A stretch of DNA of 20,201 bases from positions 1 through 20,201 of IMG/VR virus record IMGVR_UViG_3300042557_000208, one strand, 5' to 3'. A program made the translations under genes and the position numbers. Positions 3,124 through 19,387 of this stretch are shown one piece after another. The notes under the pieces are model-generated. The model searched no databases. It was given only the letters and a program-made list of their open reading frames with translations, and was not told the origin of the DNA. This DNA comes from a virus. Within the stretch, counting starts at the first letter, position 1. The number at the start of each line of letters is the position of its first letter.

Positions 3124-3221
3124 TAGAAAATCGTATCTTCTGGGTAATCATGGCAGCCGTGTCCTTAGTAGTATTGGTATTTATTATTGAATTATTTATC
3201 ATGTTTTATTTGTATTTATAA
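3120..3221 (+). CDS. 33-aa single-span membrane peptide
   Basis: ATG 3120 to TAA 3221 encodes 33 residues. After MIENRIFW the sequence is almost entirely hydrophobic (VIMAAVSLVVLVFIIELFIMF), long enough for one transmembrane helix. The ATGA overlap with the upstream gene supports translation. It ends the small-gene operon just before the promoter of the recombination module. Role unknown. It resembles the peptide at 2342 only in general character. Confidence 0.5.
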   Translation: MIENRIFWVIMAAVSLVVLVFIIELFIMFYLYL

Positions 3222-3239
3222 ATTATTATTATAACTTTA
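3209..3239 (+). promoter_or_regulatory. promoter of the recombination module
   Basis: TTTG at 3209-3212 lies 19 nt before TAACTTTA (3232-3239), a TAnnTTTG match with one mismatch in the last base. This is the expected Bacteroidota -33/-7 spacing. The -7 element begins exactly 12 nt before the ATG at 3244, the same distance as at 1594 and 14903, so the mRNA may be leaderless or nearly so. Confidence 0.55.
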
Positions 3240-3243
3240 AAGA

Positions 3244-3906
3244 ATGAGCGATATTGAATTACATCAAAAGAAATTACCAACCTTACAGGAGCTTTATAGC
3301 GATCCAGAGGGACTGGTAAAAACAGATGCTTTGCAGGTTATCCTAAACGGGCAACCTCCTGCATCCTGGATTAAAACACATCCATTTATTAAAGGCTATA
3401 AATATCTGCCTATTGATAAAGTAGAATACTTGCTAAAGCGCATTTTTAAGAATTACAGAATAGAGGTCTTGCGGGAGGGTTCTTCATTTAACGGAGTTTA
3501 TGTCGTAGTTCGTGTGCATTATCTTAATCCAATTAGCGGTCTTTGGGATTTTCACGATGGCATAGGAGCTGCACAATTACAGACTGCTTCTGGTAAGTCT
3601 GCGGCTGATCTAGCGAACATTAACAATGGCGCTTTGTCAATGGCTTACCCATTAGCTAAAACAGTAGCAATAAAGGATGCCTGTGATCATTTTGGTACTA
3701 CGTTTGGAAGCGATTTAAACCGCAAAGATACTTTAGCATTTACCTCTGATGATAAATTGCACATAGTTGCCCAAAACAAAGAGGAGGACCGGATGCAAAA
3801 GCTAATCGAAAAGGCTCAAGACAGAGAAACTCTGGAAACTCTTAAAACACATTTAACTGAAAACTTACAAAATCAATTTGATACAAAATGGAAATCTTTA
3901 AAATAA
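3244..3906 (+). CDS. single-strand annealing protein (Rad52/Sak-like recombinase)
   Basis: The 220-aa protein has the pattern of Rad52-superfamily phage annealing proteins: an N-terminal segment YLPIDKVEYLLKRIF (about residues 58-72), a beta-rich section with VYVVVRVHYLN, a DGIGAAQ motif near 105-111, and a helical C-terminal part containing DACDHFGTTFGSDLNR. Such proteins anneal complementary ssDNA during phage recombination and genome repair. The next gene, overlapping by 19 nt, encodes a YqaJ/lambda-exonuclease-like nuclease, its usual partner. ERF or another annealing family cannot be excluded by eye. Confidence 0.75.
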   Translation: MSDIELHQKKLPTLQELYSDPEGLVKTDALQVILNGQPPASWIKTHPFIKGYKYLPIDKVEYLLKRIFKNYRIEVLREGSSFNGVYVVVRVHYLNPISGLWDFHDGIGAAQLQTASGKSAADLANINNGALSMAYPLAKTVAIKDACDHFGTTFGSDLNRKDTLAFTSDDKLHIVAQNKEEDRMQKLIEKAQDRETLETLKTHLTENLQNQFDTKWKSLK

Positions 3907-4883: not shown

Positions 4884-5070
4884 AAAACACATTAAAACCG
4901 ATGGGCGTGGCTCTGCTCAGGAACTCGGCAAAGTCCAGGAATATAAAGCCAAACCAAAAAAGTATAAATCAGACATTATTGAAAACTATTTAAAAGCCAG
5001 AGATCGGTTGTTTTGGCTAGAGGGTACGCTAGATCAAAGAGCAGAAATTGAGCAAAGATGGAACAAATAA
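4876..5070 (+). CDS. hypothetical basic 64-aa protein
   Basis: The product starts MAKKHIKTDGRGSAQELGKV, with a basic N-terminal half and a helical C-terminal half (about residues 33-62). An in-frame ATG at 4858 would add six residues, but MAKK is the more natural start. It overlaps the VRR-NUC gene by 13 nt. The position between exonuclease and VRR-NUC genes suggests a DNA-associated accessory role. No domain is recognised. Confidence 0.55.
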   Translation: MAKKHIKTDGRGSAQELGKVQEYKAKPKKYKSDIIENYLKARDRLFWLEGTLDQRAEIEQRWNK

Positions 5071-5513
5071 AAAGAGATCCTATGGAAATGTACCATAGCC
5101 GTAAAACTGCAAAAGTAGTAAAACCAACTAATGTACGTACTGAATGGCAAGAGCAACTAGCGTTTTGTAAGTGGTTAAAAATGCAATACCCACAGGTGCG
5201 CTTTAGATCAGACATTCAATCAGCCGGGAAGCTGACACCTGCCATGCAGAATATTAAATTGATTTTAGATCCATTTAGAGGTTTTCCAGATATTACTATC
5301 TACCTAAAGCGTGGTGAATTTTGCGGTCTTATGATTGAAATGAAGCGCGAAAACTCTGGCTTATATCTTAAAGATGGTAGCCTGTCTAATTCAAAGCACG
5401 TGCAAGAGCAGGGCAAAATGCATGAATTTTTACGTGATAATGGATGGAAAGTTGAATTTGCGGAGGGGATGGATGGGGCAAAAATAAAATTTAAGGAATA
5501 TTTGATGAAATAA
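5058..5513 (+). CDS. VRR-NUC domain nuclease
   Basis: The 151-aa protein has the VRR-NUC pattern: a helix with ExQEQLAFCKWLK (about 29-41), GFPD with Asp78, the (D/E)XK pair IEMK (Glu94, Lys96), then KHVQEQGKMHEFLRDNGW, which matches the conserved His/Gln helix after the active site. VRR-NUC enzymes are compact PD-(D/E)XK nucleases. The phage forms are thought to act as structure-specific or junction-resolving nucleases. Its place at the end of the recombination module fits resolution of recombination or replication intermediates. Identification is strong, but the exact substrate is unknown. Confidence 0.88.
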   Translation: MEQIKRDPMEMYHSRKTAKVVKPTNVRTEWQEQLAFCKWLKMQYPQVRFRSDIQSAGKLTPAMQNIKLILDPFRGFPDITIYLKRGEFCGLMIEMKRENSGLYLKDGSLSNSKHVQEQGKMHEFLRDNGWKVEFAEGMDGAKIKFKEYLMK

Positions 5514-5531
5514 TTATAAAATAGTAAATTG
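5501..5531 (+). promoter_or_regulatory. candidate promoter for the structured RNA at 5537
   Basis: TTTG at 5501-5504 (inside the end of the VRR-NUC gene) and TAAATTG at 5525-5531 are 20 nt apart. The -7 element deviates from TAnnTTTG in its last two positions, so this is weak. If real, the RNA would begin at about 5535-5538, exactly where the first hairpin starts. Confidence 0.3.
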
Positions 5532-5536
5532 CAACA

Positions 5537-5633
5537 AGGTTAGAGTCTCAAAAATAGTTAACCTAAGGAATTAAAAGCCCTTGCATGATTTTGGACGTGA
5601 GACTCTCAAATGATTGCAGGGGCTTATTTTTTT
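5537..5633 (+). ncRNA. predicted structured RNA with kissing loops and 3' intrinsic terminator
   Basis: Two hairpins fill the gap after the VRR-NUC gene. Hairpin A pairs AGGTTA (5537-5542) with TAACCT (5559-5564) around a 16-nt loop. Hairpin B pairs 5575-5585 with 5615-5625 (11 bp, one G-U) around a 29-nt loop and is followed by seven T (5627-5633), so it is a good intrinsic terminator. Loop A holds GAGTCTCA (5543-5550) and loop B holds TGAGACTC (5598-5605), which are exact complements. They could form an 8-bp loop-loop interaction, or 9 bp if the closing A-U is used. An unusually large terminator loop complementary to the preceding loop suggests a stand-alone folded RNA of about 100 nt or an attenuator for the gene at 5645. 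No known RNA family is recognised. Confidence 0.6.
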
Positions 5634-5644
5634 AATAAATTTTT

Positions 5645-6199
5645 ATGGAAAATTATAAACCAGAAGAATATTATAGAGCCAAAATTGATAAATATCTTAC
5701 TATGTATTTTATTATTGAAAGAGAGATAAAGTCGGTTTGTGGTAGATACCGAATAGATTATGTTTTGCAATGTAAGGAATCTAAAAAATTATTTGGGTTA
5801 GAGGTTAAATCAGAAAAACGAATGAGAGGTAATGATTTTGGCAAGTATTTAAAACAAGCCAGTAATTATTCTGATTGTGAATGGTATTCAAAATTTGGCA
5901 AAGTAAAGATTTTAATTTTTATTACTCCGGCAATCTCAAATTCATTTATTAACATAACTAAAATGGAATATTTAAATGGCAAAGAAATATACTACTCTCA
6001 ACATGACCGCAATCATGAACATTCCAATGTAGGTGGGTTAATTGGTCAAATTTGTAACATAGGTGAAATCAGAAGTTTTAAAGGTTATTACGGTAATGAT
6101 TATTTTTCATTTATGTATAGAAATAAAACAATCTGGAGTTCAAGACTTAAAGGCAAAATACATGAGGTTAATTATAATTTTTATAATGATAAATTATGA
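5645..6199 (+). CDS. putative PD-(D/E)XK nuclease
   Basis: The 184-aa protein contains RIDYVLQC (Asp38) followed at the right distance by GLEVKSEK (Glu53, Lys55), a D...ExK core as in restriction-endonuclease-fold enzymes, with a possible motif I Glu25 upstream. The C-terminal half is rich in aromatics, Asn and Lys and matches nothing recognised. Its ATG lies 12 nt after the T-run of the terminator-like RNA, so expression probably depends on read-through or an unseen promoter. It overlaps the primase gene as ATGA, linking it to replication. It could process phage replication intermediates or attack host or competitor DNA, and the sequence does not decide which. Confidence 0.6.
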   Translation: MENYKPEEYYRAKIDKYLTMYFIIEREIKSVCGRYRIDYVLQCKESKKLFGLEVKSEKRMRGNDFGKYLKQASNYSDCEWYSKFGKVKILIFITPAISNSFINITKMEYLNGKEIYYSQHDRNHEHSNVGGLIGQICNIGEIRSFKGYYGNDYFSFMYRNKTIWSSRLKGKIHEVNYNFYNDKL

Positions 6200-7095
6200 A
6201 AGATATATTTTTCCAGTTTTATGAATCGGATATTAAATCAACAAAGCCACTAGGTATTGTTTCTTTGGAATACTGGATTAATTCAATGAAAAATCCAAAG
6301 CCAAAATTTAAAGAAATATTTGATAAAATACATTTAGCCTCATTAAATCAAAATAAAGCCGAAAAAGATATTTTAAAGAGATCTTTATACTTTTTTACTC
6401 CTTCGGTTATTGTAAAAACTAAGCGTTGTTATGCTGATATTGATGCATTCACAGGACTGCTTACAGTAGATTTTGATGGATTAGATTCTGATTATGCAAA
6501 CGAATTTAAAAGCGCATTATTTAATCAATATAAATTTATAATTTGTGCGTGGCTTTCTGCATCACATAAAGGCGTTAGAGCATTGATAAAAATACCCATT
6601 GCCAAAAACGTAGATGACTTTAAATTGTATTTTAATGCCATTGAGCAAGAATTAGGAATATATAATGGATTTGACATAGCACCTAAAAACTGTGTTTTAC
6701 CTATGTTTATGTCATACGATACTGATATTTTATCTCGGAATGATTATTCAACATTTACAAAAAAATATAAGCCATTAGAGATTATACCAATACCACAATA
6801 TTTTGTAATAAACGATCCTTCAACTGTTGAACGTATAATTCAATCAACAGTAAATAAAATTAATTTTAATGGTCATCCTCAACTTAGAGCAATATCATTT
6901 GCTTTAGGTGGGTATGTTGCCTCTGGTTATATTGCTCAAATAGAAGCAATACAATTAATTAATAACTGTATTGAGTCAAACGGATATTTATCCAGGCAAA
7001 CAAATGGATTGAAAATGTCAGATGTGTACAAAAAAACTGCAAAGGAAATGATAATAAAAGGTCAAACTAAACCATTAGATATTCAAAAAAGATAA
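6196..7095 (+). CDS. VirE_N/BT4734-like primase domain protein
   Basis: The 299-aa protein carries features of the archaeo-eukaryotic primase-like N-terminal domain of Bacteroidota VirE/BT4734 proteins: LTVDFDG with the metal-binding DFD at 92-94, the segment WLSASHKGVRALIKI starting at 119 (nucleotide-binding SxSxxG region), and a downstream FDIAPKN...MFMSYD segment. The C-terminal 90 residues look helical, like a PriCT-type domain. It probably makes primers for phage replication and works with the helicase encoded one base downstream. In many relatives the primase and helicase are fused. Here they are separate genes. Confidence 0.78.
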   Translation: MKDIFFQFYESDIKSTKPLGIVSLEYWINSMKNPKPKFKEIFDKIHLASLNQNKAEKDILKRSLYFFTPSVIVKTKRCYADIDAFTGLLTVDFDGLDSDYANEFKSALFNQYKFIICAWLSASHKGVRALIKIPIAKNVDDFKLYFNAIEQELGIYNGFDIAPKNCVLPMFMSYDTDILSRNDYSTFTKKYKPLEIIPIPQYFVINDPSTVERIIQSTVNKINFNGHPQLRAISFALGGYVASGYIAQIEAIQLINNCIESNGYLSRQTNGLKMSDVYKKTAKEMIIKGQTKPLDIQKR

Positions 7096-7096
7096 C

Positions 7097-8626
7097 ATGG
7101 ATAAATTCAAAAACAATGCTAAAGACATGACATTAAATCCAGTTGAATGGTTTAATTTCTATGGTGACTTTAAAGAGATATTTAAAAATAGTAAAAATCA
7201 CTATTTTATTTCAGATACTGAAGTTGGTACTTATAAGAGAAAGCAGGAAGTAATATTTAGCGTTAAGGATATTTTTGTTACGATTAAAGATGATGATCAT
7301 TTTGATATACCATCTGGCGCAAAGTACACAAAATTTATGCTACTGACCAAAGTCCGGTATAAAAATAATTATAGCGTTGCTATGAATTTTGTTTTGTTTG
7401 ATTTAATGAAAATTCAAATACCATTTATTAGAGTGGGAGTTGATTATTATAAAAAGATTACAAAGCCTACCAGATATGGAGGTAATGCGGTTTTGTTAAA
7501 ACATTGGAGAAAAGAGGAAATTAAACAAGATTATGACGCAAATTTTTTAAATAAAATCTACAAATATGATGACTTTACTATTGAGCCTAATAATGTAGAT
7601 TATTCTGCTACAATCAATAATTTTTACAATTTATATGCAAAATTTCAGCATGAAATACATTCTGATTTGGTAAAAGAAACCGAGATAGAAACCTCCTTAA
7701 ATTTGATTAAGCATATTTTTGGCAATAAATATGAAATAGGATTAAGGTATTTAAAGGTTTTATTTGAGTACCCAAAGCAAATTTTACCTATAGTAGTGTT
7801 AGTATCTGAGGAAAGAGGAACTGGTAAAACAACTTTTTTAAACTGGATGGACATGATTTTTGGTGAAAATTGTGTAAGTATTTCACCAGATGATGTGGCA
7901 CGTGGTTTTAATTCGATTTACGCTACTAAAAACATTATACTTATAGATGAAGCAGTTGCAGAGAAACAAGCTACTGTAGAGAAGCTAAAAAGCATAGCTA
8001 CTGCCAAAACAATCTCAGTATCTCAAAAGTTTGTTTCTGAATATTCAATACCTTTTTATGGTAAAATTATTTTATGTACTAATAAAGAAACCGATTTTAT
8101 GAAAATAGACAATGAGGAAATCAGATTCTTTGTATTGAAAGTACCTACAATACAAAAATTAAATACCCAGATTGAAACTTTATTATTTAATGAGATACCT
8201 AAGTTTTTAAAGTACCTAACACAATTACCAGATATTGATTTTTCGTTATCACGTATGGTTTTTACTGCTGATGAAATTAAATCAGATGCTTTAGAGATTG
8301 TAAAAGAAGAAAGTAAAAGCGGACTCTGTAAAGAAATTGATATTATAGTTGAGGACTTTTTTAATAACAATGCAAAAATTGATGAATTTCAAGCAACTGC
8401 ACTAGATATAAAAAATAGATTTTTTAGTAGAGATAACTCAATTTCGGCTAATTACATTAGAAAGGTATTAAAAAATGAATTTAAACTAAATCCTGACAAA
8501 ATTCAGCGATATAATCCCTTTAATGAAACCATGACTTCACAAACTGGTACACCTTTTACCTTTAAAAGAATACATTTCTGTGATTTTGTAAAAAACTTTT
8601 TTAACGCTGAATTTGTAGACTTCTGA
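7097..8626 (+). CDS. SF3-like replicative helicase (DUF5906-type primase-helicase ATPase)
   Basis: The 509-aa protein has an ATPase core with Walker A GTGKT (241-245, preceded by SEER), Walker B ILIDEA (Asp284, Glu285) and sensor/motif C IILCTNKE with Asn329. These are the ordered motifs of superfamily 3 helicases used by phages and plasmids. The C-terminal region (about 395-500) resembles a winged-helix DNA-binding domain. It would unwind DNA at the phage origin with the upstream primase. The gene is followed by an AT-rich repeat region, and one copy of the TTGTAAAAAACT repeat lies within its own 3' end (8586-8597). Confidence 0.85.
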   Translation: MDKFKNNAKDMTLNPVEWFNFYGDFKEIFKNSKNHYFISDTEVGTYKRKQEVIFSVKDIFVTIKDDDHFDIPSGAKYTKFMLLTKVRYKNNYSVAMNFVLFDLMKIQIPFIRVGVDYYKKITKPTRYGGNAVLLKHWRKEEIKQDYDANFLNKIYKYDDFTIEPNNVDYSATINNFYNLYAKFQHEIHSDLVKETEIETSLNLIKHIFGNKYEIGLRYLKVLFEYPKQILPIVVLVSEERGTGKTTFLNWMDMIFGENCVSISPDDVARGFNSIYATKNIILIDEAVAEKQATVEKLKSIATAKTISVSQKFVSEYSIPFYGKIILCTNKETDFMKIDNEEIRFFVLKVPTIQKLNTQIETLLFNEIPKFLKYLTQLPDIDFSLSRMVFTADEIKSDALEIVKEESKSGLCKEIDIIVEDFFNNNAKIDEFQATALDIKNRFFSRDNSISANYIRKVLKNEFKLNPDKIQRYNPFNETMTSQTGTPFTFKRIHFCDFVKNFFNAEFVDF

Positions 8627-14914: not shown

Positions 14915-15091
14915 ATGTTTAAAGCCAACTTTATAGGTCAAGCAGGATTATACAAAAATCAAGAATATGTTATTTGTGTTGGCGTTATAAATGGTTGGAT
15001 TCATGTCCGCAGGAAATGCGGAGCAGGTCGAATAAATTACCCATCAATATTAGACTTCCTAAGAGATTGGGATAATATCCGTAAAGTATGA
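14915..15091 (+). CDS. 58-aa protein leading the glycosylation cassette
   Basis: The product (MFKANFIGQAGLYKNQEYVICVG at the start, cut here at 20 by convention: first residues MFKANFIGQAGLYKNQ) has alternating hydrophobic and polar residues through YVICVGVINGWIHVRR, suggesting a small beta-barrel (SH3-like) domain, then a short helix SILDFLRDWDNI. No family is recognised. Its stop overlaps the next gene's start as ATGA, and a promoter element lies just ahead, so it is the first gene of the cassette and could be an assembly or regulatory factor for it. This is inferred from position only. Confidence 0.65.
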   Translation: MFKANFIGQAGLYKNQEYVICVGVINGWIHVRRKCGAGRINYPSILDFLRDWDNIRKV

Positions 15092-16002
15092 GAATTTTTC
15101 ATTTAGGGTTAATGGTAGCGCCTCCGCCAAATGATTCAGCACGTAAAGCCTTTTTAGCTAACTGTACTGATTACATAGAGTTATCAACAGGCGCAAAGGA
15201 TGTAAACCAAGAAGCGATAAGAATAGCCAGAGAGTTTAGACCGGATATTATCTTTATGCAGATACAAAGTCCTAACATTATACATATAGAAACTGTAAAG
15301 GCTATGCGTGAAACAGGCGCATGGATCTGTAATTGGAACGGCGATATAAGAGATGAAACTCCTGCATGGATGATACAGATGGCACCTCATATAGATAAGA
15401 CTTTGTTTTCTAATATGCGAGATGTCAAAAACGTAGTAAACGGCGGATATTTAGAGATAGGTTATGATCCTGAGATATACAAGCCAGAGGGCGAGATAGG
15501 TAATTGCAGAGATATTTCATTCTTTGGTAATAATTACGGAGGCGATAAATTTCCGCTTAGCAGGTTGCGTATAGACATGAATACGATGCTACATAAACAT
15601 TTTGGCGATAAGTATGGCGTTTATGGAAACAACTGGTTTAATGTAGCCGGAAACTATAACCATTCACAAGCAGAAGAATCAAAAGCATACAGAGCTACTA
15701 AAATAGCTATTAACTTGAGCCACTATGACGAAGATTCTTATAGCTCAGATAGGATTTATAGGATACTAGGCTCAGGGGCGTTCTGTTTATGCAAAGCCTA
15801 TCCTAATATGCCTTTTATAGACCATGTTCACGTTAGGACATGGAATAGCCTTTATGATTTAATGGTATTGCTAAGATACTATTTGGATGACCATAAAGAG
15901 GAACGTGATCTAATAGCAAAGCAAGGCAATGAGTTTGTTAAGGCAAATTATACATTTGATAAAATGGTAAAGAATTTAATACAGATATATGAGCAAAATT
16001 AA
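15088..16002 (+). CDS. CgeB-like glycosyltransferase (GT-B fold)
   Basis: The 304-aa protein resembles the CgeB/Glyco_trans_1_2 group. The N-terminal half has alternating strands with FRPDIIFMQIQSPN and ICNWNGDIRD. The C-terminal half has the donor-binding-type segment DSYSSDRIYRILGSGAFCL (from about 216), then ERDLIAKQGNEFVKANYTFDKM. These enzymes are predicted to transfer sugar from a nucleotide-activated donor. The acceptor is unknown. It opens the row of overlapping sugar-modification genes and overlaps the next by 14 nt. The cytoplasmic location implies action on phage proteins, nucleotides or glycan precursors inside the cell. Confidence 0.8.
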   Translation: MRIFHLGLMVAPPPNDSARKAFLANCTDYIELSTGAKDVNQEAIRIAREFRPDIIFMQIQSPNIIHIETVKAMRETGAWICNWNGDIRDETPAWMIQMAPHIDKTLFSNMRDVKNVVNGGYLEIGYDPEIYKPEGEIGNCRDISFFGNNYGGDKFPLSRLRIDMNTMLHKHFGDKYGVYGNNWFNVAGNYNHSQAEESKAYRATKIAINLSHYDEDSYSSDRIYRILGSGAFCLCKAYPNMPFIDHVHVRTWNSLYDLMVLLRYYLDDHKEERDLIAKQGNEFVKANYTFDKMVKNLIQIYEQN

Positions 16003-16738
16003 AGTATTAGGATTTATGACTATACACTACGCAGGTGACTACTTGCGTGAGGCTCTTATGTCGGTTGTAGATCATGTAGATAAAATGGTGATTGCTTATA
16101 GCATGATGCCAAGTCAAGGTCATGGAACGCTATTGCAATGTCCAGACTCAGAGGGTTATATATTTAGCATTTGTCAGGATGTATTAGGCGATAAGTTAAT
16201 CTGGGACAGAGCAGATAGGTACGGCGCAGAGAATGAACATAGATCAGTCAAGTACAAATACTCAGATGGATATGATTTGGTGCTGACAGTAGATTCAGAT
16301 GAGGTTTATAAATCAGATGAGTTAGGTGCATCTTTTGAGTATGCTTATTGGGGCGTAGATCGGTTTTATGGCATTGATGGTTTTGTAAACTTTTGGCGCT
16401 CTTTTAACTATGCTTGTTATGATGGTTTTAGACCGATACGATTAGAGAATTTGCACAGAAAAGAACATACTCAGGATTTAAATTTAAAGCAGACTATCTA
16501 TCATTTTAGCACCTGTCAGCCAGAGCCGATAATGAGATACAAGTATAATGTTTTTGGTCATGCTCACGAAGTTAGAAAAGACTGGCTAAATGATTGTTTC
16601 TACAGATGGAAACCAAATAACCAATTTGATGATGTGCATTGTGTAGCCTACAACATTTGGAATCCTGTTAAGTTTGATAAATCAGTATTGCCTAGTTATT
16701 TAAAGAGTCATCATAATTATAACAAGGTATTAGTATGA
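15989..16738 (+). CDS. GT-A-like glycosyltransferase
   Basis: The 249-aa protein starts with KVLGFMTIHYAGDYLREALMSVVDHVDKMVI, the first Rossmann-like half of a GT-A enzyme, and has DSDE at 102-105 after strands DLVLTV, corresponding to the metal-binding DxD motif. The rest is rich in Trp, Tyr and Phe, as expected for a sugar-acceptor site. The likely reaction is transfer of a sugar from a nucleotide sugar using a divalent metal. Acceptor and linkage are not predictable. It overlaps both neighbours and probably acts in one pathway with them. Confidence 0.72.
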   Translation: MSKIKVLGFMTIHYAGDYLREALMSVVDHVDKMVIAYSMMPSQGHGTLLQCPDSEGYIFSICQDVLGDKLIWDRADRYGAENEHRSVKYKYSDGYDLVLTVDSDEVYKSDELGASFEYAYWGVDRFYGIDGFVNFWRSFNYACYDGFRPIRLENLHRKEHTQDLNLKQTIYHFSTCQPEPIMRYKYNVFGHAHEVRKDWLNDCFYRWKPNNQFDDVHCVAYNIWNPVKFDKSVLPSYLKSHHNYNKVLV

Positions 16739-17301
16739 ACGCAGCTATAATTATAGATGATAGGGAAGATGTGGCTCAGGAAGCAATGCAAAGGCATAAG
16801 AGGTTTATACCAAAGTCATGGGATTTATTGCATATTCAACCGCCCTATGCAGGTGGCATTTACTATATAAAAACTCCTAGAGTATATAACTCTATACTAA
16901 CTAATCCTAACTTTTGGCAAGGCGCAAGATATGACAGGGTGCTAATATTTCAGCATGATTCAGGATTACTTAAAGATGGCATAGAGGAGTTTTTAGAATG
17001 GGACTTTATAGGATCGTGGATTAAGAACATACCGGGTTGCATGAATGGAGGTTTAAGCATTCGCAATCCAAAGCTGATGTATGAGATATGCGCAAAGCAT
17101 CCGTACAAAGGAATGGAAAAAGATGGTAACGAAGACATTTATTTTACTAATAAAATGCGTGAATTAGGCTATAAGTTGCCCGATAAGGCAACCTGCAATA
17201 AGTTTGCAGTTGAAACCGAGTTTGAGTATGGCTCAGTAGGTTATCATGCAATAGATAAGTATCATAAAAATTATAACCTTTTACTAAAGCAATATGATTG
17301 A
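16735..17301 (+). CDS. DUF5672-like glycosyltransferase-related protein
   Basis: The 188-aa protein matches the pattern of DUF5672 proteins, which occur in phage and bacterial glycan loci: RVLIFQHDSGLLKDGIEEFLEWDFIGSWI (about 68-97) followed by GCMNGGLSIRNPKLM (near 101-115) and an acidic GNEDIYFTNKMRELGY motif. The HDS and NED segments are candidate metal or donor-binding sites like the DxD and ED motifs of GT-A enzymes. It overlaps the preceding gene by ATGA and the methyltransferase by 8 nt. Family assignment by eye is fairly good. The substrate is unknown. Confidence 0.72.
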   Translation: MNAAIIIDDREDVAQEAMQRHKRFIPKSWDLLHIQPPYAGGIYYIKTPRVYNSILTNPNFWQGARYDRVLIFQHDSGLLKDGIEEFLEWDFIGSWIKNIPGCMNGGLSIRNPKLMYEICAKHPYKGMEKDGNEDIYFTNKMRELGYKLPDKATCNKFAVETEFEYGSVGYHAIDKYHKNYNLLLKQYD

Positions 17302-17848
17302 TAAAATATTAAAAGTAAGCGCAGAGGAGTTAAATGCAATCAATCTGTCTAAGTATCTAAAAAGTACGGATGATCTGGGATTTCCAAAAGGCTGGTTTTA
17401 CATGGATGCAGGTTTAGAGCATTATAGATTACTAGCATTTATCAGCACTTTAGTTAACGGAGCTACTTTGCTAGACATTGGAAGCTATCAGGGAAGCTCT
17501 GCCATAGCTTTGTCGTTTAACAAAAAGAATAAAGTTATTAGTTATGACATTGAGCATCAGCCAGAGATAGCGGAAATTAAAATACCTAATATTCAATTTA
17601 TAAAAGGCGATGTTTTGAAGTATGAGATTACTGCTCCTTTTATCATGCTAGATACATACCATGACGGCGAGTTTGAGCAGGAGTTTGCGGATCATTTGCT
17701 AAAGATTAATTACAAAGGTCTGGTCATGTTTGATGACATTCATCTAAATAATGAAATGAGTAATTTCTGGAATGCATTAAAGAACGAAAAATACGATTTA
17801 ACACATATAGGACATCATACAGGTACAGGCATAGCTATTTATGATTAA
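17294..17848 (+). CDS. class I SAM-dependent methyltransferase
   Basis: The 184-aa protein has the SAM-binding motif I LLDIGSYQGSS (DIGSYQG at 61-67), the acidic residue at the end of strand 2 in VISYDIE (Asp85), and MLDTYHDGEFEQEFADHL followed by GLVMFDDIH, resembling the Methyltransf_24 group. Such small enzymes in glycan loci usually O-methylate sugars, though protein or small-molecule methylation is possible. It lies between glycosyltransferase genes with 8-nt overlaps on both sides, so capping or modifying a sugar chain is the likely role. Confidence 0.82.
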   Translation: MIDKILKVSAEELNAINLSKYLKSTDDLGFPKGWFYMDAGLEHYRLLAFISTLVNGATLLDIGSYQGSSAIALSFNKKNKVISYDIEHQPEIAEIKIPNIQFIKGDVLKYEITAPFIMLDTYHDGEFEQEFADHLLKINYKGLVMFDDIHLNNEMSNFWNALKNEKYDLTHIGHHTGTGIAIYD

Positions 17849-18446
17849 TTTATTTACTTCAATTTATACCGATAAAAGCGCAATTAGGCAAAAGGAATTA
17901 ATCTACTGCCTAAATAAGAACATAGAGAATCAGCTTATAGATAAAATTTATCTGTTTGTAGATGGTTTTGTAGAGTTGCCAAATTCTGACAAATTAGTAA
18001 TTATACCATTTCAGCGACCTACTTACAGGGACTTTTTTAACTTAATAGATAGAACAGTCACAAGCAGGGAAGATATTTCAATGGTCGCTAATACAGATAT
18101 TTATTTTAACCATACGCTTAGCCAGTTGACTTTAAATGAACGGCAATGCATAGCCTTAAGCAGATGGGATGATAAGATCGGAGGCTTAAAGTTACACAAT
18201 GAGCGCTTTAGTCAAGATGTCTGGATATTTAAAGGCAAGATGCGCAATGTTAATTTCTGTGATTTTTATTTAGGCATACCGGGTTGTGATAATCGGATTG
18301 CTTATGAGTTACATAGCGCAGGTTATGCGCTTTATAATCCTGCTACAAGAATACAAGCTATTCACTATCATAGAAGCGATCTGCATAATTACGATGGCAG
18401 AACATTAAAGATACAAAGACCATATCTGTTTATTCCTGTAACATGA
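17841..18446 (+). CDS. putative GT-A-like glycosyltransferase
   Basis: The 201-aa protein begins with a short strand-helix unit (MINLFTSIYTDKSAIRQKEL) and has SMVANTDIYFN with NTD at 84-86 in the position of a DxD-like motif, followed by IALSRWD and, near the C-terminus, PGCDNRIAYELHSAGYAL and IHYHRSDLH. These features recur in small glycosyltransferases of phage and bacterial polysaccharide loci. The single Asp in NTD makes the metal site atypical. It overlaps both neighbours and belongs to the same operon. Confidence 0.65.
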   Translation: MINLFTSIYTDKSAIRQKELIYCLNKNIENQLIDKIYLFVDGFVELPNSDKLVIIPFQRPTYRDFFNLIDRTVTSREDISMVANTDIYFNHTLSQLTLNERQCIALSRWDDKIGGLKLHNERFSQDVWIFKGKMRNVNFCDFYLGIPGCDNRIAYELHSAGYALYNPATRIQAIHYHRSDLHNYDGRTLKIQRPYLFIPVT

Positions 18447-19387
18447 ACATATTACTAAGTCCAGGCATTTACTTACCGCATCAGAGAGCAGGATCTGAAA
18501 TCTATTTGCATCGGGTTGTAACCTATCTAATGAGCAAAGGTCATGAGGTTAAGGCAGTAACTAGATGCCCTGAAAATTACAGTTATGAGGGCATACAGGT
18601 TTATAAAGCTAAAGACAATTACAAGCAATGCCATAATGATTTATGGGACTGGGCAGATCTGGTGTTTTGTCAACTGTCTGGCACTTACTATGCAATGAAT
18701 AAACAAAGGCTAAAAGCTAAAAAGGTTATTAACTTTGCTCATAATAACGTAGGTTATCCGCAGGTTAACATAAGACCGAATACTTATACTGTTTATAACT
18801 GCGAGAACACAAAGCGAGAATTAAACTACAATCAGGAAACCTATACTTTGTACGCACCAATTAATTATAGAGATTACTCAACTGCTAGACCAGAAGCTGA
18901 GTATGTTACGCTAATAAACCATAATGAAAACAAAGGCGGTCAGATATTAATAGAGATTGCCAAGCGAATGCCTAAAACAAAATTCATGGCAGTACAAGGC
19001 GGTTACTATCATCAGATCAAAGATGAAAAGGTCAGGAATATAAAATATGTACCTTTAATTGATGATGTTAAGAAATATCTGGCTATGACTAAGGTCCTAA
19101 TTGCACCATCAGAGTATGAAAGTTATGGAATGGCTCAAATAGAAGCTCTGTGTTGCAATATTCCTGTAATCTGTTCTGATATACTAGGCTTTAGAGATAG
19201 TGTCGCAGATGCAGGGATATTCGTTGAGAGGAACAATATAGATGGATGGATTGATGCTATTAGTAACATAGATACAATCCAGACTAAGAAAACACCTTTA
19301 GAGAGGGCAAAAGAATTAGATCCTGCTAAGGAATTGCCAAAGTTTGAAAATTGGTTAAATAAAATATGTAATTTAGCGATTATATAA
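18443..19387 (+). CDS. GT4-type glycosyltransferase (GT-B fold)
   Basis: The 314-aa protein has the N-terminal MNILLSPGIYLPHQRAGSEIYLHRVV segment, in which the glycine-containing acceptor loop aligns with GT4 enzymes. The C-terminal donor domain has PSEYESYGMAQIEALCCNIPVI with the EX7E pair at Glu226 and Glu234, followed by SDILGFRDSVADAGIFV. GT4 enzymes are retaining transferases using nucleotide sugars. It is somewhat shorter than the usual 350-400 aa. It is the last gene of the cassette and is followed after 45 nt by the head-tail connector gene with no promoter or terminator visible. Confidence 0.87.
   Translation: MNILLSPGIYLPHQRAGSEIYLHRVVTYLMSKGHEVKAVTRCPENYSYEGIQVYKAKDNYKQCHNDLWDWADLVFCQLSGTYYAMNKQRLKAKKVINFAHNNVGYPQVNIRPNTYTVYNCENTKRELNYNQETYTLYAPINYRDYSTARPEAEYVTLINHNENKGGQILIEIAKRMPKTKFMAVQGGYYHQIKDEKVRNIKYVPLIDDVKKYLAMTKVLIAPSEYESYGMAQIEALCCNIPVICSDILGFRDSVADAGIFVERNNIDGWIDAISNIDTIQTKKTPLERAKELDPAKELPKFENWLNKICNLAII

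Follow-up and report, generated by a model that had tools for sequence, protein, structure and literature searches.

Conserved loop-loop pairing in leader elements of early DNA replication and recombination operons of Bacteroidota phages: a probable switch for those genes

Why should the gap directly before a phage replication operon carry two hairpins whose loops are complementary to each other? The question arises from a 20,201-nt stretch of viral DNA, positions 1 to 20,201 of IMG/VR record IMGVR_UViG_3300042557_000208, which is referred to here as the window. An initial annotation described two hairpins with an exact 8-nt loop-loop complement followed by a 7-T run, and proposed either an attenuator or a stand-alone small RNA of about 100 nt. 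The coordinates of stems, loops and T-run all proved correct (Table 1), and both stems are present in the minimum free energy (MFE) fold (z = -2.3). The start codon at 5645 lies 11 nt after the T-run rather than the 12 nt given, and the label "VRR-NUC" attached to the upstream gene drew no Pfam hit even at E = 1; its PHROGs matches are to Holliday junction resolvase / endonuclease families.

Table 1. Predicted features of the element and of the genes around it in the window
Feature	Position	Strand	Basis or remark
Upstream gene, nuclease / Holliday-junction-resolvase-like	5058..5513	+	PHROGs; 3' end overlaps TTTG box
-33-type promoter box, TTTG	5501..5504	+	Sequence; consensus TTTG / TAnnTTTG (PMC6847099)
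-7-type promoter box, TAAATTGC (TAnnTTGY)	5525..5532	+	Sequence; motif and -12 to -5 position from PMC9723704
Hairpin 1, 5' arm AGGTTA	5537..5542	+	Sequence, MFE fold
Loop 1 kissing segment, GAGTCTCA	5543..5550	+	Complement of 5598-5605
Hairpin 1, 3' arm TAACCT	5559..5564	+	Sequence, MFE fold
A-rich linker between hairpins, 10 nt	5565..5574	+	12-28 nt in relatives
Hairpin 2 (terminator stem), 5' arm AAGCCCTTGCA	5575..5585	+	Sequence, MFE fold
Loop 2 kissing segment, TGAGACTC	5598..5605	+	Complement of loop 1
Hairpin 2 (terminator stem), 3' arm TGCAGGGGCTT	5615..5625	+	Sequence, MFE fold
U-run of predicted intrinsic terminator, 7 T	5627..5633	+	Sequence
First gene of downstream operon, nuclease-like	5645..6199	+	Weak PD-(D/E)XK-like match
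BT4734-like primase N-domain gene	6196-7095	+	Second gene of downstream operon
DUF5906/VapE-type helicase gene	7097-8626	+	Third gene of downstream operon

Promoters were called by consensus only, using the Bacteroidota consensus TTTG / TAnnTTTG (PMC6847099) and the TAnnTTGY motif, which occupies -12 to -5 (PMC9723704). Placing the -7-type box of the window at -12 to -5 puts the predicted +1 at 5537, the first base of hairpin 1, so that the predicted RNA would run from hairpin 1 through the linker and hairpin 2 to the end of the U-run and measure about 97 nt.

Scored for its two stems and its loop pairing together, the window element was equalled by 2 placements only in 300 dinucleotide shuffles of the whole window on both strands. 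Taken alone this is suggestive; it is the comparative evidence that decides. The one other match that our scanner (described below) returned in the window (7956-8045) was rejected, as it lies inside a gene and scores far lower. No second copy of the element sequence was found in its own record, and a direct DNA search of 50,697 phage records gave no match. No Rfam 15 family matched the window or 11 element-bearing loci at gathering score, and relaxed thresholds gave nothing either, the best sub-threshold score being 28.4 vs. 80 bits for sau-19; the c4 antisense RNA model (RF01695) matched neither the window nor these loci.

Relatives were found through the upstream gene, successive rounds of queries with which gave 21, 55 and then 61 viral loci plus one MAG locus, and the gap after the gene was read in each. 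Five classes of element were distinguished at this position by their loop pairs: class A, comprising the window, L009 and L019 (GAGTCTCA/TGAGACTC), class B (ATTAGGGA/TCCCTAAT), class C (GCTACAACG/CGTTGTAGC), class D (TAAGGG/CCCTTA) and class E (TTGCGCT/AGCGCAA). A relative of class C, L094, has the pair AGCGTTCAGT/ACTGGACGCT with one G-U. Elements of classes A-E start shortly 3' of a promoter-like box and end in a stem and U-run before an ATG. In class C, hairpin 1 is weak or absent and the pairing there is pseudoknot-like. Relatives that keep only the terminator stem, without the upstream hairpin or the loop complementarity, did not occur. The near-palindromic loops that had suggested dimerisation are peculiar to the window's type, other types not being palindromic, which takes away the ground for that proposal.

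Some relatives lack the element at this position. In L020, L021 and L055-L057 the promoter stands directly before the primase gene, and in L058, L071, L087 and L088 a small gene (HTH-like in L058) takes the place of the element. Proteins of ~50-75 aa were seen in this slot after the upstream nuclease gene at L058 3461-3625 (HTH_17-like), L071 1415-1573 and L088 3335-3562, as though the slot could be filled by either a protein regulator or the RNA element. At L061 3455-3545 and at further class C loci, a short open frame (MKI(F/L)K.SLLF...) coincides in part with the element. Its candidacy as a leader peptide was rejected, as the later part changes frame in L060 and the reading is not conserved.

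A second query, the Zn-ribbon gene downstream of classes B and D, led to further types in the leaders of this gene in other contigs. Their loop 1 segments are GTAGAGGG in type F, GTAAGGAG in G (one G-U), CTGGAAAG in H, GTGATGCT in I and GTGGAAG in both J and K, and in each of types F-K the loop of hairpin 2 holds the complement. Together with the classes above, these bring to at least 12 the number of element types that share one layout, namely promoter, hairpin 1, linker, a hairpin 2 resembling a terminator, U-run and ATG. Their sequences are largely unrelated, and every type has a complementary loop pair of its own. Nearly all elements have a -7-like box shortly before hairpin 1, usually at a distance of 1-17 nt, and a TTG-to-box spacer of 20 nt is common to most relatives. 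Many promoters 5' of types A, C, D, F, G and H carry TAnnTTGC and match the SM5 motif of F. psychrophilum, not the sigma-A box TAnnTTTG; possibly they are served by another sigma factor or are relaxed sigma-A sites.

Further copies were located with a scanner whose pattern was hairpin 1, kissing loop, hairpin 2, U-run and start codon. From 1.44 Mb of sequence it returned 65 redundant (29 unique) matches at operon heads; 0.72 Mb of shuffled DNA gave 4. Some copies lie ahead of an annealing-type recombinase gene (named by position; no Pfam hit), behind which comes a YqaJ exonuclease gene. Others head ResIII and SNF2-type helicase genes (L157, L058, L092), and in L134 a copy stands ahead of a 212-aa gene. 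The genes behind the elements thus include nuclease, Zn-ribbon, primase-helicase, annealing-type recombinase with YqaJ exonuclease, and ResIII and SNF2 helicase genes. Some genomes carry two copies, and the two codes differed in 8/8 such contig types examined (G001, G002, L061, L062, L070, L074, L092 and mumin6-1); the loop 1 segments are TAAGGG and ACTGGAAG in G001, and GTCGTCG and GTGGAACG in mumin6-1. No convincing element was seen in Cellulophaga phi18:1, Flavobacterium lotta8-1 and FPSV-S1, searched whole, or in the parts of phi46:1 and P12024L that were searched. Loop 1 often reads nTGGAA followed by A, G or C despite differing stems (types H, J, K, S, V and mumin_2), which may reflect a preferred kissing sequence or a shared origin.

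If the loops are meant to pair, each loop 1 should fit its own loop 2 better than those of other types. In a loop 1 x loop 2 matrix of 12 types, the mean diagonal score was 20.5 and the mean off-diagonal score 9.95, and 0/200,000 permutations reached the diagonal sum; these types were found by position and not by complementarity, two class C types among them share a lineage, and the loop boundaries were drawn by hand. With 20 types the diagonal sum was 393 vs. 201 +/- 15 (0/200,000 permutations), a figure that is partly circular, as types S, T, U, V, W, mumin_1 and mumin_2 came from the scanner, which requires complementarity. The 12-type figure is free of this circularity, as is the mumin/hattifnatt comparison below. 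Stems show compensation as well: GCA..TGC vs. GTA..TAC in hairpin 2 of class B, and AACTAT/ATAGTT vs. AATTAT/ATAATT in hairpin 1 of class D. Two MAFFT alignments in which loop segments (those of L124 and L094) are misplaced were left out of all pair counts. Within class A, to which the window belongs, the three distinct sequences show no covariation, and support for this class comes from the anatomy that it shares with the other types.

Cultured Flavobacterium phages of the mumin group, which are virulent (PMC7077304), provided a comparison at close range. Phage vB_FspS_mumin6-1 has one element before gp034 (endonuclease), with the loop pair GTCGTCG/CGACGAC, and a second before gp037, which precedes helicase and primase genes, with the pair GTGGAACG/CGTTCCAC. 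The second element occurs in 46 Flavobacterium phage records (the mumin group and relatives) at 80-100% identity. Between mumin and hattifnatt9-1, stinky9-1 and tooticki6-1 it has a mean column identity of 92%, and the latter three, in which the loop pair is GTGAGACG/CGTCTCAC, differ from mumin in two adjacent loop pairs that are changed on both sides, i.e., compensatorily. All 29 pairs of the alignment are standard, and 29-44% of cells are paired when it is slid by 1-3 columns; the shuffle control, with three distinct rows, was weak (44/500). Duplexes within a code have computed energies of -11.4 and -11.7 kcal/mol; pairing the mumin and hattifnatt codes with each other gives -4.4 and -4.9 kcal/mol. 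The gap between the second element and the next gene is longer in the hattifnatt-type phages. The swap fits neutral drift via G-U intermediates or selection for distinct codes.

With pairing kept over at least 12 largely unrelated types and two compensatory changes between close relatives, the loop-loop pairing is strongly supported and is conserved by the measure of sequence comparison; its function is inferred. Since loop sequences change freely yet stay complementary, the pairing itself is maintained by selection. The chance explanation, inverted repeats that happen to surround an ordinary terminator, is hardly credible to us. AT-rich DNA does yield about 2 weaker matches per shuffled window, but three findings speak against it: the outcome of the permutations, the reciprocal exchange of loop pairs seen from mumin to hattifnatt, and the enrichment of operon-head matches over shuffled DNA. 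Chance is also made less likely by the persistence of complementarity in relatives while the sequence is replaced, which is a stronger argument than the shuffles.

The 3' ends of the elements resemble intrinsic terminators. A run of at least four T stands before the ATG in 26/26 elements, compared with 23/269 of the remaining genes on these contigs, and the T fraction at -12..-1 is 0.74 vs. 0.29 for the other genes. The stem is followed directly by the U-run, as in intrinsic (Rho-independent) terminators. Most types have 10-14 nt between the base of hairpin 2 and the ATG, a tighter range than a terminator by itself would require; the distance is 16 nt in U, 17-19 nt in class A and 28 nt in E. 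By an estimate from the standard A-form rise, the linker is long enough in most types for both hairpins to stack on the loop helix (coaxial kiss). The window, E and one S variant lack about 3-10 A of the length needed, a shortfall that slack in the loops can help to cover.

What the comparison demonstrates is an arrangement of two hairpins, loop-loop pairing, a U-run and a promoter-like box at the head of early DNA-metabolism operons. We consider it probable that this arrangement is a leader attenuator, i.e., an intrinsic terminator heading early operons whose efficiency is set by the loop-loop kiss, most likely in cis; the kept pairing in the early replication and recombination operons of these Bacteroidota phages would then probably be a switch for those genes. 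Host RNA polymerase would start at about 5537 and hairpin 1 would form at once, whereupon the loop of the nascent hairpin 2 would kiss loop 1. Hairpin 2 and the U-run would act as an intrinsic terminator just before the first start codon, so that some transcripts would stop there as short leader RNAs; how often polymerase reads through into the replication operon would be set by the kiss. Pairing would occur mainly in cis, each copy having its own code. We infer termination itself, an effect of the kiss on it, the direction of that effect and a relieving signal. Points against this reading are the lack of covariation within class A, the weak or missing hairpin 1 of class C and the longer gap behind the second element in hattifnatt-type phages.

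The position of the element, between a promoter (called by consensus) and the first gene of an operon, is that of a leader attenuator. Of the two functions in the initial annotation, that of an attenuator is the better fit. The promoter adjoins hairpin 1, the short distance from the end of the U-run to the start codon leaves no room for a second promoter, and where relatives lack the element, the first gene of the operon directly follows the same promoter. Less supported is an independent small RNA that would act on host or phage targets and have nothing to do with the genes downstream. It would account for the promoter-like box, the terminator-like end and the length of ~97 nt, but the element stands directly before the first gene of the early operon in relatives, its loops are occupied by each other, and loop sequences are not conserved, so no target would be shared; we regard such a role as very improbable. 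Antitermination of the kind known from HK022 put, where polymerase becomes resistant to terminators once the RNA has bound it, is improbable too. Its appeal lies in a size of about 70-100 nt, two stem-loops directly after early promoters and two copies per genome. However, there is no conserved sequence for a fixed RNA polymerase surface to recognize, the copies in one genome differ in loops and stems, every element ends in its own terminator-like U-run, and the putRNA paper (PMC9378689) describes no loop-loop kiss.

Translation offers a different account, one counting against the attenuator, in that the 10-14 nt between hairpin 2 and the ATG could also serve translation control. The kissed hairpins would form a compact 5' end governing translation or mRNA stability, and the U-run would be a ribosome-binding region or spacer without termination. 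Bacteroidota translation is governed by local mRNA structure and not by Shine-Dalgarno pairing (PMC6847099), which agrees with this account, as does the narrow spacing in most types. Nevertheless, these phages have an A-rich tract before their other genes and a U-rich one here, the A at -3 that is favoured in these bacteria (PMC6847099) is missing from most element genes, and a GC-rich stem directly followed by a U-run is the signature of an intrinsic terminator. We therefore think a 5'-UTR role unlikely. Somewhat less unlikely, though still doubtful, is self-regulation in trans, whereby the terminated leader RNA kisses the nascent leader of the same operon or of a co-infecting phage as a dosage timer or a means of superinfection control, in the manner of P4 CI RNA, pT181 attenuation or IsrK. 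The loops of two such molecules are complementary by construction, codes differ where a genome has two copies and also among close relatives isolated on the same host set, and the short form of IsrK, a phage leader RNA, acts on its own read-through mRNA (PMC4825925). On the other hand, intramolecular pairing should be kinetically favoured and G-U intermediates permit neutral drift of the code; the differing codes of two copies in one genome fit cis action and self-specific trans action equally. Lysogenic immunity is an unlikely form of trans control, given that a search of element-bearing contigs found no tyrosine integrase gene and that phages of the mumin group are virulent. Immunity of temperate phages was rejected on these grounds and on the near absence of the Zn-ribbon gene from 395 genomes of one Bacteroidota class, in which only two marginal, stop-containing matches were found. 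It is a speculative and likewise doubtful thought that the loop pair is a self-recognition code, with terminated leaders accumulating and acting in trans on leaders of the same code only. Were it true, each early operon would count its own transcripts or genome copies, related phages sharing a host would diverge in code to avoid or impose mutual control, and virulent phages would possess an RNA-only, rapidly switchable specificity system.

Several known systems resemble the leader attenuator proposed here in part. The P4 CI and P1 C4 RNAs are short, leader-derived phage RNAs whose complementary segments control a replication or antirepressor operon, and they act in trans in lysogens; in contrast, the present elements have no Rfam match (c4 is RF01695) and the phages that bear them appear virulent. 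In lambda, the terminator tR' just after a phage promoter holds back an operon and is relieved by the Q protein at DNA and polymerase; the promoter-proximal terminator is alike, but no kissing RNA is known to be involved there. The antisense attenuators of pT181, in which a loop kiss can drive termination, come close, as a loop-loop kiss governs an intrinsic terminator in the leader of a replication gene and the loop codes are exchangeable, giving specific variants (PMC3753616). There, however, the partner loop is on a separate antisense RNA, whereas here both loops lie in one leader and hairpin 2 is itself the predicted terminator. The put elements of HK022 likewise have two stem-loops in ~70 nt directly after early phage promoters, in two copies per genome, but they suppress termination via the zinc-binding domain of the RNA polymerase beta' subunit, their copies share sequence, and neither kissing loops nor a terminator of their own is described (PMC9378689). 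The elements thus share with put the stem-loops after early promoters and the multiple copies per genome, but not the similarity between copies. Gifsy-1 IsrK is also a phage leader RNA that ends at a terminator, read-through giving the downstream mRNA, but it acts in trans on translation, it is of prophage origin, and the available part of its report describes no loop-loop architecture (PMC4825925). A conserved ligand-binding core, as in metabolite riboswitches, is absent, no core sequence being common to the element types. We found no description of a kissing-loop terminator in phages in a literature search that had subscription journals largely outside its coverage. The element would best be classed as a variant of leader attenuator/terminator RNAs outside any named family.

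Control of early genes in Bacteroidota phages is little known, and the present data indicate a recurrent RNA device that often stands at the heads of early operons. A test system is at hand in the 46 Flavobacterium phage records, which include natural variants with two loop pairs changed compensatorily. Kissing codes that diverge in nature and are largely self-specific would also be of use in building RNA circuits, and complementarity between the loops of a leader hairpin and a terminator is a search rule unused by sequence- or stem-based RNA finders.

Two further observations concern the window itself. At 3180-3260, the gene at 3244 has no element and a promoter-like box, TAACTTTA, lies a few bases before its ATG; this gene occupies the slot of the annealing-type recombinase gene, where other contigs have a kissing-loop leader. 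Between the capsid and later virion genes, at 15088-19387, is a cluster of genes that look glycosyltransferase-, methyltransferase- and sugar-related, as judged by eye from their translations.
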